This document shows positions 5,258 to 15,663 of a DNA stretch of 54,647 bases, piece after piece. Every line of letters starts with the position of its first letter. Position 1 is the first letter of the stretch. The stretch lies in the NCBI RefSeq assembly GCF_000377785.1, contig NZ_KB898730.1:1-54647 (forward strand), given 5' to 3'. A program made the position numbers and the translations under genes. This DNA is from Thioalkalivibrio sp. ALJ24. Its GTDB lineage: Bacteria > Pseudomonadota > Gammaproteobacteria > Ectothiorhodospirales > Ectothiorhodospiraceae. The notes beneath the pieces are model-generated. The model was not told the DNA's origin and ran no database searches. It saw only the letters and a program-made list of their open reading frames with translations.

Positions 5258-6227
5258 GCGGGGTGTGCTGGGTGAAGAGCTCGGGGCGGTAGTCGAGGGC
5301 CTGGTGGCGGGCTTTGGCGGAGGGGTGCAGGGCGTCGGGCGGTACGTCGCGCGGGCGGTCGCCGAGGTGCAGCAGGCGCAGGGTGCGGCCGGCCCAGGTG
5401 TTCCAGGGTTCGTGGATGGGGCCGGCGGGGTCGGGGGCGACGGGGGGTTCATGGGCGTCTTTGACGATCAGGCCGGCCTCGGCGGCTTCTTCGAGCATCC
5501 ATTGCAGGGCGATCTCGGCGAGCTGGCGCTGTTCGTAGCCGCCGCCGACGTCGGCGTGGGCGCCGGGGAACCAGAGTTGCTTGAGGGTCTGCCCGGGCTC
5601 GGCGCGGGATTCGTCCCACAGCAGCGCCTCGAACTTGGGGCGGCGTTCGTCGATGGCCAGGGCGTGGCGGGCGTGGGTGACTTCGGGGCTGAGCCGGGTG
5701 TCGAAGAAGCGGCGGTTGCGGTAGAGGTAGCCGAGTGAGCCGACGGTGTCCCAGGCGCCGATGAAGTGCACCGGGCAGGGTCGGGTGTGCTGCTTGCGAA
5801 AGCGTGCGGCCGCGTCTTCGTTGTCGTGCCCGGTGTACAGCTTCGAGGCCTCGGCGATGAGATCTTCCCGCCCGGGATGCAGCAGCCCGCATTTGCGCAG
5901 CATGCCGGAGAGCGCGCGCACGGCATACGCGCCGCGCGAGAAGCCGAACAGGTACACCCGGTCCCCTTCCCGCACCTGCTGCATCAGGAAGCGGTAGCCG
6001 TTCTCGATGTTGGCGGTGAGTCCGTGGCCGAACAGCTTGCCCAGGCTGGTGCCGATGATGTTCTCGCGCCGCATGCCGAACGGGGAGAAGGTGCCCACGC
6101 CGGGCTCGTAGGCCGAGACCTGACAGGCGGTGGTGGGGATGCGCCGGATCAGGTGCACCACGTTGGTGTTGACCTTGCCCTTCTGGTTGGCGGTGCCGTC
6201 GCAGCAGAAGACGATGTTCCGTTCCAT
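5253..6227 (-). CDS. DUF2235 alpha/beta-hydrolase (Tle1-like phospholipase domain)
   Basis: 324 residues, starting MERNIVFCCDGTANQ, the typical DUF2235 opening. The nucleophile elbow is LFGFSRGAYAVRAL (about residue 108, Ser in G-F-S-R-G). A second conserved block, FIGAWDTVGSLG (about residue 170), is followed by WFPGAHADVGGGY (about residue 234), which supplies the Asp/His of the triad. Members include type VI secretion phospholipase effectors (Tle1), but many stand alone, and no T6SS or immunity gene is visible here. ATG 6227 is preferred over 6239 because GAGGG lies six bases upstream of it. The C-terminus ends abruptly inside a REP-like repeat, so the stop may have been supplied by the repeat. 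Confidence 0.85.
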   Translation of the reverse strand: MERNIVFCCDGTANQKGKVNTNVVHLIRRIPTTACQVSAYEPGVGTFSPFGMRRENIIGTSLGKLFGHGLTANIENGYRFLMQQVREGDRVYLFGFSRGAYAVRALSGMLRKCGLLHPGREDLIAEASKLYTGHDNEDAAARFRKQHTRPCPVHFIGAWDTVGSLGYLYRNRRFFDTRLSPEVTHARHALAIDERRPKFEALLWDESRAEPGQTLKQLWFPGAHADVGGGYEQRQLAEIALQWMLEEAAEAGLIVKDAHEPPVAPDPAGPIHEPWNTWAGRTLRLLHLGDRPRDVPPDALHPSAKARHQALDYRPELFTQHTPP

Positions 6228-9526: not shown

Positions 9527-10954
9527 TCAACCATGGTCGGGCCTCGGCGGGTTCTTGATGGTGGCGAAGGCATCGAGGGCGGCCTGGCGGCTCTGTTTCA
9601 GGTCGACCATGGGGGCGGGGTAGTCGACGGCGAGGCCGGGGCGCAGCTGGTGGATGTCGCGGGCGGGGGCGCGGGCGAGTTCGGGGACGAAGCGCCGGAT
9701 GTAGGCCGCGTCGGGGTCGAAGCGTTCGCCCTGGCGCTGCGGGTTGAAGATGCGGAAGTAGGGCGCGGCATCGGCGCCACAGCCGCCGGCCCATTGCCAG
9801 CCGAGGGTGTTGGCGGCGAGGTCGGCGTCGACCAGGGTGTCCCAGAACCAGCTGGCGCCCGCGTGCCAGTGCAGCCGCAGGTTCTTGGTCAGGAAGGAGC
9901 CGACGGCCATGCGCATGCGGTTGTGCATCCAGCCGGTCTCCCACAGCTGGCGCATGGCGGCGTCGATCACCGGGATGCCGGTACGACCCTGCTGCCAGCG
10001 CTCCAGGTCTTCCGCCGACTCGCGCCAGGGGAAGGCCTCGAAGCGCGGGTTCAGGGGCTGCTCCGGGGTGTGGGGGAAGTGGTAGAGCACGTGGTGGGCG
10101 AAGTCGCGCCAGCCGAGTTCGCGCACGAAGGGCTCGGCCGGGCCGTCGGTTGGCTCGTGCCCGGCCTGGCGCAGGGCGCGCAGGATCTGCGTCGGGCTGA
10201 TCTCGCCGAAATGCAGATGCGGTGACAGCCGTGAGGTGCCGTCGGTGTCGGGGCGTTCGCGGCGTTCGGTGTAGGCGCCCAGGCCGCGTTGGATGAAGCC
10301 CTGCAGACGTTCCAGAGCGGCGCGCTCGCCGGGGTCCCAGGCCGCGGCCAGCCCACTGTCCCAGCGGATGCGCGGCAGCAGGTCGAGGGCCTCCAGCGGT
10401 TCCGAGGCCGGGGGCGACGGTGGCGCGGGGATGCGGCTCGGGGCCGGCAGCGGGTCGCGTTCCACCCCGCGCTTGCAGGCGGCGCGCCAGTACGGGGTGA
10501 AGACCCGGTAGGGCGTGCCCTGGCCGGTGGCCAGTTCCCAGGGTTCGTGCAGCAGGGCGGCGGCGAAGCTGTGCACCTCCAGGCCGTCCTCGCGCAGCGC
10601 GGCCTTGATGGTGGCGTCGCGCGCGGTGATCACCGGTTCGTACAGGCGGTTCCAGTAGACCGCGCCGGCGCCGGTCTCGCGCACCAGCGCGCGGAGCTGT
10701 TCGAGGCTGGAGCCCCGGCGCAGGGTCAGCCTGGCCCCCAGGGCTTCGAGCTCGTCCCCCAGCGCCTGCAGGCTGTGATGCAGCCACCAGCGTGACGCTG
10801 CGCCGGGGGCCCAGGGCGCTTCTTCGTGCGGGGCGTGGATGTACACCGGGATTACCGGGCCGCCGCGGCTGAGGGCGGCGTGCAGCGCGGGCTGGTCGGC
10901 CAGGCGGAGGTCGCGGCGCAGCCAGACGAGGGCGGGGGACGACGGGGTACTCAC
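9527..10954 (-). CDS. phrB: Deoxyribodipyrimidine (CPD) photolyase, class I
   Basis: 475 residues. The N-terminal antenna domain is LVWLRRDLRLADQPAL (residues 9-24). The long helical FAD domain has GTSRLSPHLHFGEISP (about residue 247), ELGWRDFAHHVLYHFP, WQQGRTGIPVIDAAMRQLWETGWMHNRMRM (about residue 345), and WQWAGGCGADAAPYFRIFNP near residue 405. These are the class I CPD photolyase signatures, including the Trp electron-transfer chain. It repairs cyclobutane pyrimidine dimers with blue light using FADH-. The GTG start at 10954 overlaps the stop of the upstream photolyase (GTGA), so both are made from one transcript headed by the MerR regulator. The real gene starts well inside a much longer open frame. 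Confidence 0.93.
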   Translation of the reverse strand: MSTPSSPALVWLRRDLRLADQPALHAALSRGGPVIPVYIHAPHEEAPWAPGAASRWWLHHSLQALGDELEALGARLTLRRGSSLEQLRALVRETGAGAVYWNRLYEPVITARDATIKAALREDGLEVHSFAAALLHEPWELATGQGTPYRVFTPYWRAACKRGVERDPLPAPSRIPAPPSPPASEPLEALDLLPRIRWDSGLAAAWDPGERAALERLQGFIQRGLGAYTERRERPDTDGTSRLSPHLHFGEISPTQILRALRQAGHEPTDGPAEPFVRELGWRDFAHHVLYHFPHTPEQPLNPRFEAFPWRESAEDLERWQQGRTGIPVIDAAMRQLWETGWMHNRMRMAVGSFLTKNLRLHWHAGASWFWDTLVDADLAANTLGWQWAGGCGADAAPYFRIFNPQRQGERFDPDAAYIRRFVPELARAPARDIHQLRPGLAVDYPAPMVDLKQSRQAALDAFATIKNPPRPDHG

Positions 10955-12540
10955 AGGCGGTCTCCTTCGCGCAGGCGCCGGCGCAGCTCGCCCGCGCGGT
11001 CGCGGATCTGCTGCAGGCGCTCGGGGTCCATGCGTTCGACGTGCTTCCACTGCAGCGCGGTGCGCGGGTGGCGGGCGAAGCGCTCGCGGTGGCGGTCGAG
11101 GAAATCCCAGTACAGGGTGGTGAACGGGCAGGCACGCTCGCCGGTGGCCTCGCCCGGGTCGAAGCGGCAGTGGCGGCAGTAGTTGCTCATGCGCTGGATG
11201 TATCGCCCGGTGGCCACGTAGGGTTTGGAGGCCATGCGCCCGCCATCGGCGTACTGCGACATGCCGAGCACGTTGGGCAGCTCCACCCATTCCACCGCGT
11301 CCACGTAGATGCCGAGATACCAAGCGTGGATCGCGCGCGGTTCCACGCCCAGCAGCTGGGCGAACAGCCCGGTCACCATCAGGCGCTGGATGTGATGGGC
11401 GTAGCCCAGCCGCAGGGTCTGGCCCACCGCCTGCGCCAGGCAGGTCATGTCGGTGTCGGTGTCCCAGTACAGCCGTGGCAGCGGTTCGTGGGCGTCCAGC
11501 GCGTTCCAGGCGTGCCAGTCGTCGCCGAAGTGGAAATACAGACCGCGCACGTACTCGCGCCAGCCGAGGATCTGGCGGATGAAGCCCTCCACCGCCTCGA
11601 TGGGCGCGTGTCCGTCGTGCCATGCGGCCTCGGCCTCGCGGATGGCCGCGCGTGGATCCAGCAGGTGCAGGTTGAGCGCGGCGGAGATCCGCGCGTGGTA
11701 GAGCCACGGCGCATCGGTCCACATCGCGTCCTGCCAGGTGCCGAAGGCGGGCAGGCGGTTCCGGATGAAATCCTCCAGCGCCGCCTGCGCGTGCTCCGGG
11801 GTGACCGGCCAGTCGAAGGCCTCCAGCTCGCCCGGCAGGTGCGGCAGGTGGGTGCGCACGTCGTCGATCGCCCCCCGGGTGATGGCATCGGGCGTGAAGC
11901 CCATCGGCTCCGGGATCAGGCCGGGTCCCTGACGGCCGAAGCTGCCCCGGTTGCTGGCGTCGAAGTTCCACGCGCCGCCGGCGGGCGCTTCGCCGTCCAT
12001 CAGGACGTCGTGCTCGCGGCGCAGCTTGCGGTAGTAGTGCTCCAGGCGCAGCTCGCGGCGCGACCCGGCCCAGCGGCCGAAGGCCTCGGGGGTGTCGATG
12101 AAATGCGGGTCCTCGCGGATCTTCAGACGCAGCCCGTGACGAGCGGCGGCGTTTTCCAGGCCCCGCTGCACGCGCCGTTCGCCGGGCTGCAGTACGCACA
12201 GGTTCTGTGGCTGCAGGTACGCGAGGTCGTGTTCCAGCGCGCCGCCGAGGTGTTCCTGTTCCGGGCCCTGAGCGGAGTCGAACGTACGGTAGTGCACGGT
12301 CAGCCCGGCCGCGCGGCGGCGCTCGGCGAACTGGCGCATGGCCGCCAGGAACAGCGCGCTGCGGGCCCGGTGTGAGGGGACATGCGTGGATTCCGCGGTG
12401 ACCTCGGCCATCCACAGGGCATCCTGTGCCGGGTCGAGGGTTGCGAGGACCGGGTGTTCGGGGGAGAGCTGATCGCCGAGGACGATCAGCAGGGTGCGTG
12501 GCCGGTGCGCGGCGGTCGCCTCGTCGTGGCAGGGCGTCAT
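10951..12540 (-). CDS. Iron-sulfur cryptochrome/photolyase, prokaryotic (6-4) type (FeS-BCP)
   Basis: 529 residues starting with the FeS-BCP opening LLIVLGDQLSPEHP. Four cysteines at 367, 455, 458 and 471 have the 88-3-13 spacing of the [4Fe-4S] ligands of Agrobacterium PhrB; the last three lie in SNYCRHCRF and RACPF. The FAD domain shows GFIRQILGWREYVRGLY (about residue 319), GYAHHIQRLMVTG (about 379) and WVELPNVLGMSQYADGG (about 418). Characterised members repair (6-4) photoproducts or act as light sensors (CryB). It lies between the regulator gene (33 bases downstream of its stop) and phrB, which it overlaps. All key cysteines are present, so activity is expected. Confidence 0.92.
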   Translation of the reverse strand: MTPCHDEATAAHRPRTLLIVLGDQLSPEHPVLATLDPAQDALWMAEVTAESTHVPSHRARSALFLAAMRQFAERRRAAGLTVHYRTFDSAQGPEQEHLGGALEHDLAYLQPQNLCVLQPGERRVQRGLENAAARHGLRLKIREDPHFIDTPEAFGRWAGSRRELRLEHYYRKLRREHDVLMDGEAPAGGAWNFDASNRGSFGRQGPGLIPEPMGFTPDAITRGAIDDVRTHLPHLPGELEAFDWPVTPEHAQAALEDFIRNRLPAFGTWQDAMWTDAPWLYHARISAALNLHLLDPRAAIREAEAAWHDGHAPIEAVEGFIRQILGWREYVRGLYFHFGDDWHAWNALDAHEPLPRLYWDTDTDMTCLAQAVGQTLRLGYAHHIQRLMVTGLFAQLLGVEPRAIHAWYLGIYVDAVEWVELPNVLGMSQYADGGRMASKPYVATGRYIQRMSNYCRHCRFDPGEATGERACPFTTLYWDFLDRHRERFARHPRTALQWKHVERMDPERLQQIRDRAGELRRRLREGDRL

Positions 12541-12573: not shown

Positions 12574-13572
12574 TCAGCCGCGGCCGAGCCGTTGCCACAG
12601 CAGGTCGGCGGCTTCCAGCGGCGCGCCGGGCAGGACCTCCACCGGGCGCTGGCTCTCGACCTGAGCGAGTTTCGGTGCGGCGGAGCCGGCGATATAGACC
12701 GGCACGCCGGGGCTCTTCAGGATCGCCTCGACCTGGTTGAGTTCGGGGCTGCGCAGCAGCTGCGAGGAGCCGTGCAGGATGACCCCGCGTGCGGAACGGG
12801 TCTGTACCAGGGATTCCAGTGCCTTCGCGCTGGTCGCGTCGAACAGCGGCAGGGTGGACAGTCCGCGCCGCGCGCAGCTGACCTGCAGCAGCATTCCACC
12901 GACCTGCTGATGGCCGCCGCCCAGGACCAGGCAGGGCGCTGCCGGGCCTTCGCAGGCGCGCAGGGCGGTGCGCAGCTGGTCGGCCAGGGCCGCGGTCGCC
13001 CAGGCCGAGAATACCGCCAGGCGCACCTCGCCTTCCGGCGTGTGGCGGGACTCCTCGCGCAGCTGGCGGTAGACCTCGAGGAACGCACGTTCGTGTACCC
13101 CCTCCCAGCCGTGGCGCATCACCAGCCGCGTGTAGGCGCGGTCCAGCTGTTCGACGTCCAGCGCATCCACCGCGTGGCAGAGGGCGTTGGCGATCGGGTC
13201 GGCGGTGTGCGGAGCGACGCCCGGTCCGCTGACCGCCGGGCGGCGACCGGGGGCAGGGGAGGAACCGTCGTCGGCGGGGGTGTCGTCGGCCTCCGCGGTC
13301 GCGTCCTCGTCTTCGCGCTGGAGTACGCGATGGACCTGCGAGACGGGGATGCCCTGATCCAGCAGTTCCATGATCCGCTGGATCCGCTGGATGTCTTCCT
13401 CGCTATAGAGACGATGCCCCTTGGGCGTGCGCATCGGGCGGATCAGCCCGTACCGACGTTCCCAGGCGCGCAGGGTGACATCGTTGATGCCGGTCTCCGC
13501 ACAGACATGACGGATGGGATAAAGCCCCGCCTGCGGATGGGTAGTGGCGTCGTTCTCGGTCGCGTTAGCCAT
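12574..13572 (-). CDS. MerR-family regulator with CarH/MlrA-like C-terminal domain
   Basis: 332 residues. The winged-helix MerR domain at about residues 17-85 (YPIRHVCAETGINDVTLRAW, ERRYGLIRPMRTPKGHRLY) is followed by an acidic linker. The C-terminal region (130-332) resembles the helical bundle plus Rossmann domain of cobalamin-binding regulators CarH/LitR. The B12 signature is degenerate: where CarH has E-H, this has FS (LAVFSAWATAAL), and D/E-x-H-x-x-G reads GGHQQVG. In this it is closer to E. coli MlrA/BluR. It heads the photolyase operon. Tandem 11-bp repeats begin six bases upstream of its ATG, so autorepression is likely. There is no well-spaced ribosome site (GGAG abuts the ATG); the transcript could be leaderless. 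Confidence 0.88.
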   Translation of the reverse strand: MANATENDATTHPQAGLYPIRHVCAETGINDVTLRAWERRYGLIRPMRTPKGHRLYSEEDIQRIQRIMELLDQGIPVSQVHRVLQREDEDATAEADDTPADDGSSPAPGRRPAVSGPGVAPHTADPIANALCHAVDALDVEQLDRAYTRLVMRHGWEGVHERAFLEVYRQLREESRHTPEGEVRLAVFSAWATAALADQLRTALRACEGPAAPCLVLGGGHQQVGGMLLQVSCARRGLSTLPLFDATSAKALESLVQTRSARGVILHGSSQLLRSPELNQVEAILKSPGVPVYIAGSAAPKLAQVESQRPVEVLPGAPLEAADLLWQRLGRG

Positions 13573-13577
13573 GCTCC

Positions 13578-13610
13578 GGACTATACAGGAACTGTACAAA
13601 TCATGTACGA
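13578..13610 (-). promoter_or_regulatory. Putative operator: three tandem 11-bp direct repeats upstream of the merR gene
   Basis: On the plus strand three consecutive 11-mers read GGACTATACAG, GAACTGTACAA and ATCATGTACGA. The middle copy matches the CarH-type repeat nAnnTnnACAn exactly; the outer two keep the T and AC at the same positions. CarH and LitR bind several such direct repeats as oligomers. A minus-strand -10-like TATAGT (13580-13585) lies inside the array, so binding would block transcription of the regulator-photolyase operon. Effects on the divergent DUF255 gene 95 bases away are possible. Confidence 0.65.
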
Positions 13611-13704
13611 AAAGGCGGCAGATCGGCCCGGGGCTTTCGTCATGGAATGGTTGGGTCGCGTTAATGGTCTCACAGATACGACTCGTTCTGGTGCAGAGGT
13701 GCCC

Positions 13705-15663
13705 ATGATTTACGGCGATTCCCCGCACTCCGGCCTGCACATGGGCCTGCGCATTGGCAACCGGATGCGGTCCGGGCTGCTGGCGGGCCTGATTCCCGGT
13801 CTGATCCTGGGTCTGGCCGCGGCCGGTCCGCTGGCCGCGGAGCCGAAAAATCCGGAGATGGCCGACAGCATCTCCCCGTATCTGCGCCTGCACGCGGAGG
13901 ACCCGGTGCAGTGGCGCGCCTGGGACCGGGATCTGCTGGACCAGGCCCGCGAGAGCGGCCAGCCTCTGCTGATCTCCAGCGGCTATTTTTCCTGCCATTA
14001 CTGCCACGTGATGCACGAGGAGAGCTTCCTCGACGAGGGCATCGCCGAGCGGCTCAACGAGCACTTCATCCCGGTCAAGCTGGATCGCGAGGTGCACACC
14101 GCGCTGGATACCTATCTGCTGGAGTTCCAGCGCGCCACCGGGGGCAGCGCCGGCTGGCCGCTGAACGTGGTGGTGATGCCCGAGGGCCATGCACTGACCG
14201 GGATCGTCTATGCGCCGCGGGATGGCTTTGCCGACTTCCTGGATGGGGTGGTCGAGCGCGTGCGGGCGGACGAGGAGCGCCTCGCGGAGCTGGCTGCGGC
14301 GGGCTCGCGCGAGCTGCAGGAGCGGCTGCGCGCCGACGAGGAACCGCTGTCGACGGAGCGCGCCGGGCGCCTGCCGGATGTGCTGTGGAACCGCATGGAG
14401 CGCGAGGCCGATGATCTGGGCGGCGGTTTCGGGCAGGAGACCAAGTTCCCGCACTCCCCGTATCTCGAAGCGCTGCTGGACGCGCACGCGACCGACCGCG
14501 CGCCGGCGTGGACGGAAGAATTCCTCGCGGTGACGCTCGAGGAGATGGCCGGTTCCGGGCTGCGGGACGTGCTGGGCGGCGGCTTCTTCCGCTACTCCGA
14601 GACCCCGGACTGGGGCACCCCGCACTTCGAGATCATGCTGGAGGACCAGGCGCAGCTGGCGCGCGTGTACCTGCGGGCCGGCGAGCAGTTCGGACGCGGG
14701 GACTGGACGCGCCTGGGTCTGGAGACCCTGGATTTCGTCGGTCGCGAGATGGCACTGCGCGAATCCGACCCGGGCACGGTCGAGGCCCCGGAAGGCGATT
14801 TCCGTGGGTTTGCCTCCAGCCTGTCGGCGCTGGATGACGAGGGCCGCGAGGGCGGTGCCTATCTGTGGCCGGGCTCGGAGCTGGAGGCCGCGCTGGAGGA
14901 TCATCCGGAGCCGGACCTGGTGCGAGCACGCTTCGGCATGGACGGCTCGCCGTCGTTCAGCGACGGTCACCTGCCGGCCGATGGCACGGATACCGCGGCG
15001 CTGGCCGAGCGTTTCGACCTCGACCAGGAGCGGGTGCGCGAGTACGTCGATCGGGGCCGCGAGGCGCTGATCGAGGCGCGTCAGGAACGCGGCCTGCCGC
15101 GCGACGAGAAGGTGCTGACCGGCGCCCACGGCCTGCTGCTGTCGGCGCTGGCCGAGGCGGTGCGCCAGGACCTGGGCGAGGAATACGAGGCCATGGGCCG
15201 TGACGTGCGCGACTGGCTGGCGGCACGCGCCGACGCGCCGGAGGATCTGCCGGCGCTGCTGGGCCTGCCGGCCGAGGAGGCCGGCCCGGCCACGCTGCCG
15301 GATTATGCGTACGTGGCCCGCGGCCTGCACGACTGGGACGCCGCCACCGACAGCGGTGACGGCGAGCGGGTGCGCGCCCTGCTGCGTGCCGCCTGGGAGC
15401 GCTTCGCCGGCGAAGACGGCTTCCGCACCACCGAGGACCCGCCGCTGCCGGGCATGATCGCCGAGCGTTTCCATCCGGCCGTGCACCGCCCGTCGGGTAC
15501 CACCGCCGTGCTGCAGCTGACGGCCGAACACGCCGCCGCGGATGCGGATCTGGAGACGGCGCTGGCGGACTATGCGCTGGAGCCGGGACAGGGCATCGAG
15601 AGCAATCCCCTGCATCACGCGGGCCTGATCCTGTGGCTGGAGGAACGCCGGGACGAAGGCTAG
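13705..15663 (+). CDS. DUF255 (YyaL/SSP411-like) thioredoxin-fold protein, exported
   Basis: 652 residues. An N-terminal hydrophobic segment (SGLLAGLIPGLILGLAAAG, ending LAAEP at about residue 47) looks like a signal peptide. The DUF255 thioredoxin domain follows, with SPYLRLHAEDPVQW and GYFSCHYCHVMHEESF (about residue 95; CHYC redox-like pair), then FIPVKLDREVHTALD. The rest resembles the alpha/alpha six-hairpin barrel (GGGFFRYSETPDWGTPHFE, GAYLWPGSELEAAL). The molecular role of this widespread family is unclear. The ATG at 13705 has agaggtg upstream; ATG 13741 is an alternative. It is transcribed away from the MerR operator region. A distant relative is encoded at 23688-25253. Confidence 0.85.
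   Translation: MIYGDSPHSGLHMGLRIGNRMRSGLLAGLIPGLILGLAAAGPLAAEPKNPEMADSISPYLRLHAEDPVQWRAWDRDLLDQARESGQPLLISSGYFSCHYCHVMHEESFLDEGIAERLNEHFIPVKLDREVHTALDTYLLEFQRATGGSAGWPLNVVVMPEGHALTGIVYAPRDGFADFLDGVVERVRADEERLAELAAAGSRELQERLRADEEPLSTERAGRLPDVLWNRMEREADDLGGGFGQETKFPHSPYLEALLDAHATDRAPAWTEEFLAVTLEEMAGSGLRDVLGGGFFRYSETPDWGTPHFEIMLEDQAQLARVYLRAGEQFGRGDWTRLGLETLDFVGREMALRESDPGTVEAPEGDFRGFASSLSALDDEGREGGAYLWPGSELEAALEDHPEPDLVRARFGMDGSPSFSDGHLPADGTDTAALAERFDLDQERVREYVDRGREALIEARQERGLPRDEKVLTGAHGLLLSALAEAVRQDLGEEYEAMGRDVRDWLAARADAPEDLPALLGLPAEEAGPATLPDYAYVARGLHDWDAATDSGDGERVRALLRAAWERFAGEDGFRTTEDPPLPGMIAERFHPAVHRPSGTTAVLQLTAEHAAADADLETALADYALEPGQGIESNPLHHAGLILWLEERRDEG

Follow-up and report, generated by a model that had tools for sequence, protein, structure and literature searches.

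A conserved 11-bp repeat array as candidate operator of a probably cobalamin-free LitR regulator and its putative light-related regulon in Thioalkalivibrio sp. ALJ24

Which signal controls the photolyase operon of Thioalkalivibrio sp. ALJ24, and through which DNA element? The question is raised by the window analysed here, the 54,647-nucleotide stretch of contig NZ_KB898730.1 (positions 1 to 54,647), in which a LitR/CarH-type MerR regulator gene (litR) is preceded by three 11-bp repeats. The initial annotation described the repeats as a CarH/LitR-like operator in front of a MerR regulator gene heading two photolyase genes, and pointed to adenosylcobalamin as a possible cofactor. The gene order is as it had stated, with all three genes on the minus strand, and the operator as well as a light-related regulon found support in genome comparisons, while the cobalamin part found none. 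It is likely, by analogy with characterized systems, that a B12-free LitR repressor occupies the 11-bp array and is released in blue light by a short LOV protein.

The array lies at 13581-13613 on the minus strand, three bases away from the 13578-13610 given at first, and consists of the head-to-tail 11-mers TTTTCGTACAT (13603-13613), GATTTGTACAG (13592-13602) and TTCCTGTATAG (13581-13591). The middle 11-mer fits nAnnTnnACAn exactly, as had been claimed, and the outer two fit it in part (CGTACA, TGTATA). On the minus strand the order is thus CGTACA-N5-TGTACA-N5-TGTATA, with 8 nt between the array end and the litR start codon, and the plus-strand hexamers are TATACA at 13582, TGTACA at 13593 and TGTACG at 13604. 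TGTACA is palindromic, and the repeats therefore have no discernible direction. The relaxed hexamer pattern [TC][AG]TA[CT][AG] is palindromic too, so that a plus-strand scan covers both strands; the array is the sole place in the whole window with at least two such hexamers at 11-bp spacing, and no N12-spaced pair of them occurs within the window. When the 134-bp intergenic stretch was dinucleotide-shuffled 20,000 times and scored with five TGTACA-type hexamers, the triple never arose and a pair arose in two, and the triple was likewise absent from 100 shuffles of the whole window, which upholds the 11-bp repeats as real.

Conservation of the spacing was followed in the bacterial family, where the regulator was searched in 47 genomes and matched in 42 at E 0.001, in some via the helix-turn-helix only. 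The loci of the 30 best-matching genomes were taken, 29 of which have upstream DNA (the window is one of these; L028 has none), and the remaining 12 matching genomes fall outside the upstream comparison. An 11-bp-spaced pair or triple of hexamers stands directly before the litR start codon in all 29 loci, so that the outcome named initially as a refutation, a lack of conservation upstream of orthologous regulator genes, did not occur. A wider scan covered the best 80 of 593 relatives in named genomes, six of which (L179-L183, L189) were already in the family search. Within at most 350 bp upstream in these 80, two hexamer spacings stand out, 11 bp in 22 loci and 18 bp in 15, any other spacing from 6 to 40 bp occurs in at most three loci, and in 100 shuffles the 11-bp and 18-bp spacings each appeared never more than once. 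Of the 80 loci, covering no more than 4 kb on either side, 64 contain a PhrA-like match. The assignment of the array as a CarH/LitR-like operator on the regulator's own promoter, and with it autorepression, is therefore well supported by sequence comparison.

The outer repeats coincide with predicted promoter elements. The hexamer of repeat 1, CGTACA (13604-13609, minus strand), would be the -35 element, followed after an 18-bp spacer by TATAGT (13580-13585, minus strand), a predicted -10 element that runs out of repeat 3 and is assigned by position and conservation; the ATG of litR (13570-13572, minus strand) begins 7 nt after it. In all 29 litR loci the last repeat leads into a -10-like hexamer (TACAAT in 24, TATAGT in 2, TACACT in 2, TACAGT in 1), and repeat 1 or its stand-in occupies the -35 place with the 18-bp spacer, as the strict hexamer in nine loci and in degenerate form in the rest. 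The gap between the -10 hexamer and the start codon is 6 nt in 21 loci and 7 nt in six; the remaining two score a 1-nt gap owing to an earlier in-frame start codon. A Shine-Dalgarno-like motif 4-14 nt upstream of the litR start was found in none of the 29 loci; in the window, as in its nearest relative, a GGAG lies closer to the ATG than this range, 1 nt upstream of it. The short gap and the lack of a Shine-Dalgarno-like motif together lead us to predict that the litR mRNA is leaderless.

What does the regulator sense? The 332-aa protein (12574-13572, minus strand; Pfam MerR_1, E 2.4e-18), analysed with residues 1-331, has an N-terminal MerR helix-turn-helix near that of CarH, with 3whp and CarH 5c8d as best PDB sequence matches, and is predicted to have the CarH fold, with a C-terminal helical bundle and a Rossmann domain as in CarH. 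Under the classical CarH mechanism, it would sense light via adenosylcobalamin and leave the repeats on photolysis of the cofactor. The predicted fold and the resemblance of the repeats to CarH operators (PMC9304148) speak for that mechanism, as do the homologs discussed below that combine cobalamin motifs with 11-bp operators, but the ligand residues make it very improbable: G-H-Q-Q-V-G is found where CarH has E-R-H-E-I-G, the Thermus CarH ligand motifs W...EH and [DE]xHxxG are absent, and no Pfam B12 domain is listed up to E 10, although the filters of HMMER let few matches with E above roughly 0.1 through. Adenosylcobalamin was set aside as the sensor on these residues, and the protein seems to be a B12-free LitR in which the predicted CarH fold was retained and the cobalamin ligands were lost.

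The relation between ligand motifs and operator spacing was compared in 95 proteins, namely that of the window, 14 drawn from the 29 other family loci, and the best 80 of the 593 relatives (one gene appears twice, as L020 and L179). Both cobalamin motifs are kept in 22 of them, with 11-bp spacing in 11, 18-bp spacing in one and neither in ten, whereas the 73 proteins without both motifs comprise 25 with 11-bp spacing, 13 with 18-bp spacing, one with both and 34 with neither. In a tree of these proteins, whose root and long branches are unsure, the motif-bearing proteins cluster together with two that the motif pattern had missed, the motif-less 18-bp proteins fall into a Halomonadaceae group along with one 11-bp entry, and the Thioalkalivibrio proteins lie outside both groups. 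As regards placement in the Pseudomonas class II clade, the tree contains neither PplR nor PmlR2, and its sole Pseudomonas sequence sits on a long branch.

A genome search for the same repeats, as the initial annotation had proposed, revealed three places beyond the window; in total, the 2.81 Mb genome, in which the window belongs to contig C7, has six pairs with at most one mismatch at four places. One pair (C5:143756) lies upstream of a Tll0287-like heme-protein gene and the short LOV gene, pairs at C3:232577-232604 lie between divergent DUF3429-folE genes and an FAD-oxidoreductase/cyclopropane-synthase operon, and one pair (C11:5571) lies upstream of cheY-cheA-cheW, where CheA was named via Pfam and CheY, CheW and the STAS-like protein mentioned below by reading the sequences. 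Among relatives, the pair was found upstream of the LOV operon in 22 of 30 loci, upstream of the FAD-oxidoreductase operon in 28 of 30, and upstream of cheY in all nine close orthologs (at least 88% identity, own genome included). The FAD-oxidoreductase operon repeats the promoter geometry of litR, with TTTACA at the -35 place in 25 of 28 loci and TATAAG, TATAAA or TATAAC at the -10 place in all 28. It should be noted that the heme-protein gene (L064 5822-6451) sits between operator and LOV gene, and that in genome G016 a transposase-like gene (L174 4838-6088) splits the two genes.

These sites bear on the notion that the 11-bp repeats are just a conserved promoter shape to which the regulator does not bind. 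That repeats 1 and 3 coincide with the predicted -35 and -10 elements would fit this notion, but we give it hardly any credence, since the central TGTACA is well kept within the spacer, a region whose sequence is free to vary in a promoter. Moreover, the che site persists while shifting relative to the genes, lying between the STAS-like gene and cheY in the own genome and upstream of the STAS-like gene in G018, G021 and G023, and the pair is absent from the 13 cheY loci of other genera as well as from eight further CheY loci. Orthologs of a PAS-PAS chemoreceptor at E 1e-100 or better carry the array in nine of nine genomes; no ortholog at this threshold was found in the own genome. TCAAGTTT stretches near the che operators (L065 about 5590-5640, L129, L131) resemble the -35 element of flagellar sigma-28 promoters, and the che operon may have two promoters.

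There are 40 exact TGTACA-N5-TGTACA sites, spread over 17 of 19 genomes, and none for the reversed control; five of the sites lie at litR, eight at the LOV operon, seven at che, nine at a methyl-accepting chemotaxis protein (MCP) gene, ten between pntB and priA and one elsewhere. The pntB-priA site, exact in 10 and with one mismatch in two of 30 priA loci, was rejected as a further target and left out of the operator tally, because it looks like a hairpin: further genomes show TGCACA-N5-TGTGCA-like changes that preserve the inverted repeat. This palindrome (L172 5378, L158 1501, L159 1501, L170 1501) is followed by a conserved ACCCACA stretch. The one site elsewhere, at G022:C6:168430-168446, is not assigned to any of the known target genes.

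The short LOV protein, which has the same kind of operator, is a likelier sensor than adenosylcobalamin. In the PDB it best matches short 'Sensory box' LOV proteins that carry the DCRFLQ motif, several of which we take to come from P. putida. A LOV match of at least 78% identity is present in 30 of 30 same-genus genomes, in three of which the regulator is missing or weakly matched (G027, G028 and G031, completeness 58-77); in G038 the regulator gene is cut by a contig end. A second LOV protein of the own genome (NCRFLQ; L050 715-2592) looks by its sequence like a membrane domain joined to LOV and GGDEF. In Pseudomonas mendocina, PmSB-LOV in its lit state was shown to bind PmlR2 and to inhibit both DNA binding and repression by this regulator (PMC9758184).

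The preferred mechanism, a LitR repressor released by the LOV protein, would thus operate as follows. In the dark, the repressor would sit on the 11-bp repeats over both predicted promoter elements and block RNA polymerase, resulting in autorepression of litR-phrB-phrA. The same repressor would hold down a small dispersed regulon, for which conservation of the operators is observed and binding is inferred, comprising the Tll0287-like heme protein with the short LOV protein, the FAD-oxidoreductase/cyclopropane-synthase (UfaM-like) operon, the divergent DUF3429-folE genes and cheY-cheA-cheW. In blue light, by homology with PmlR2/PmSB-LOV, the LOV protein would bind the repressor and strip it from the DNA. 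Since the repressor would control its own gene as well as the LOV gene, the circuit is expected to be self-resetting.

Several observations weigh against this interpretation or against the array itself. By its plain period-11 self-similarity score the array is not exceptional, since 51 of 54,614 window positions match or exceed it. The likely promoter of the initial annotation is backed by anatomy and conservation, but CGTACA shares only three of six bases with TTGACA, making the -35 element of the window weak, and a strict sigma-70 consensus scan of 13540-13740 yielded no promoter, so that its placement is inferred. With at most two mismatches, the own genome has 20 sites versus 18 for the reversed control; two-mismatch sites are thus indistinct from background, and only the six pairs with at most one mismatch were used. 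By the pattern used, no pair was found in eight of 30 LOV loci and two of 30 FAD-oxidoreductase loci. The eight comprise one with the operator farther up (G016, beyond the inserted transposase-like gene), two contig edges, three two-mismatch near-matches and two with none, and the other two are G013, with a near-match, and G003, a genome without a regulator match. The sites on which PmlR2 was footprinted have N12 spacing (PMC9758184), in contrast to the N5 found here. Finally, the sister genus g2 has the regulator in eight of ten genomes and a close LOV ortholog in three.

The last point bears on a different inducer acting on the same operator and regulon, either oxidative stress or a ligand of the degenerate C-terminal domain. 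In five of the g2 genomes that have the regulator, no close LOV ortholog occurs and the best LOV-like matches are at 48-53% identity, and the Vibrio cholerae MerR-phr operon VCA0056-0058 is induced by blue light with reactive oxygen species as the proposed signal (PMC5241685). Nevertheless, the operator on the LOV operon itself and the presence of the LOV gene in all 30 same-genus genomes argue against such an inducer, which we consider unlikely, though less so than the two alternatives above.

Compared with known systems, the proposed release of LitR by LOV has its closest counterparts in PmlR2/PmSB-LOV (P. mendocina) and PplR/PpSB-LOV (P. putida), which are class II LitR systems (PMC9758184). 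Shared with these are a MerR regulator without a functional cobalamin motif, a genome-encoded short LOV protein of the PpSB-LOV type, photolyase, UfaM-like, FAD-oxidoreductase and folE targets, and TGTACA half-sites over the promoter (PMC9758184). In contrast, the class II operator T(G/A)TACA-N12-TGTA(C/T)A is replaced by two or three repeats in 11-bp steps (N5 in all 29 loci), the litR, LOV, ufa/folE and che targets lie at separate places, and a chemotaxis operon, plus a PAS chemoreceptor in some relatives, is among the candidate targets (PMC9758184). Tandem 11-bp TnnACA repeats overlapping promoter elements (in the window, one full and two partial repeats) and the predicted fold are shared with CarH of Thermus thermophilus and Bacillus megaterium; unlike CarH, the system has no cobalamin ligands and a separate LOV protein, and photolyases instead of carotenoid genes adjoin the regulator (PMC9304148). 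VCA0056-0058 likewise combines a MerR gene and a photolyase gene in one predicted operon, for which no operator is given in the excerpts of PMC5241685 considered. With its N5 operator, dispersed regulon and chemotaxis targets, the system would be a new form of LitR photoregulation.

A broader interpretation, to which we give slightly less than an even chance, is that in a non-phototrophic sulfur bacterium, a LitR lacking the B12 sensor and a CarH-type 11-bp operator unite DNA repair, folate and membrane-lipid protection, and chemotaxis under one blue-light LOV switch. Light would then induce repair and swimming away, and operator, promoter and the start codon of a leaderless litR mRNA would be fused within about 45 bp. 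If so, the system would be an intermediate in LitR evolution, with cobalamin sensing lost, CarH operator geometry kept and sensing taken over by a separate LOV protein; it would predict that a lithotroph controls its chemotaxis genes by light, and would offer a compact operator-promoter pair for testing one MerR fold on half-sites spaced by 11 bp versus 18 bp. No literature linking such a regulon to chemotaxis genes was found, nor any on light control in Thioalkalivibrio among titles and abstract starts (LOV, blue light, photolyase).

The second gene of the operon encodes a DPRP/PhrB-type photolyase (10951-12540, minus strand; PF04244, E 4.4e-66) and the third, with a GTG start, a PhrA class I photolyase (9527-10954, minus strand; PF00875 and PF03441); phrA and phrB overlap by 4 nt. 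On the other side of the array, a divergent YyaL-like gene encodes a thioredoxin-like DUF255 protein (13705-15663, plus strand; PF03190, E 2.6e-40). A YyaL match lies divergently across from the litR-like gene in 26 of 30 loci, including the window, and in each of the 26 loci of the same genus that have upstream DNA this gene adjoins litR. The intergenic stretch that holds the operator is common to both genes, and the YyaL-like gene is a possible second target of the operator.
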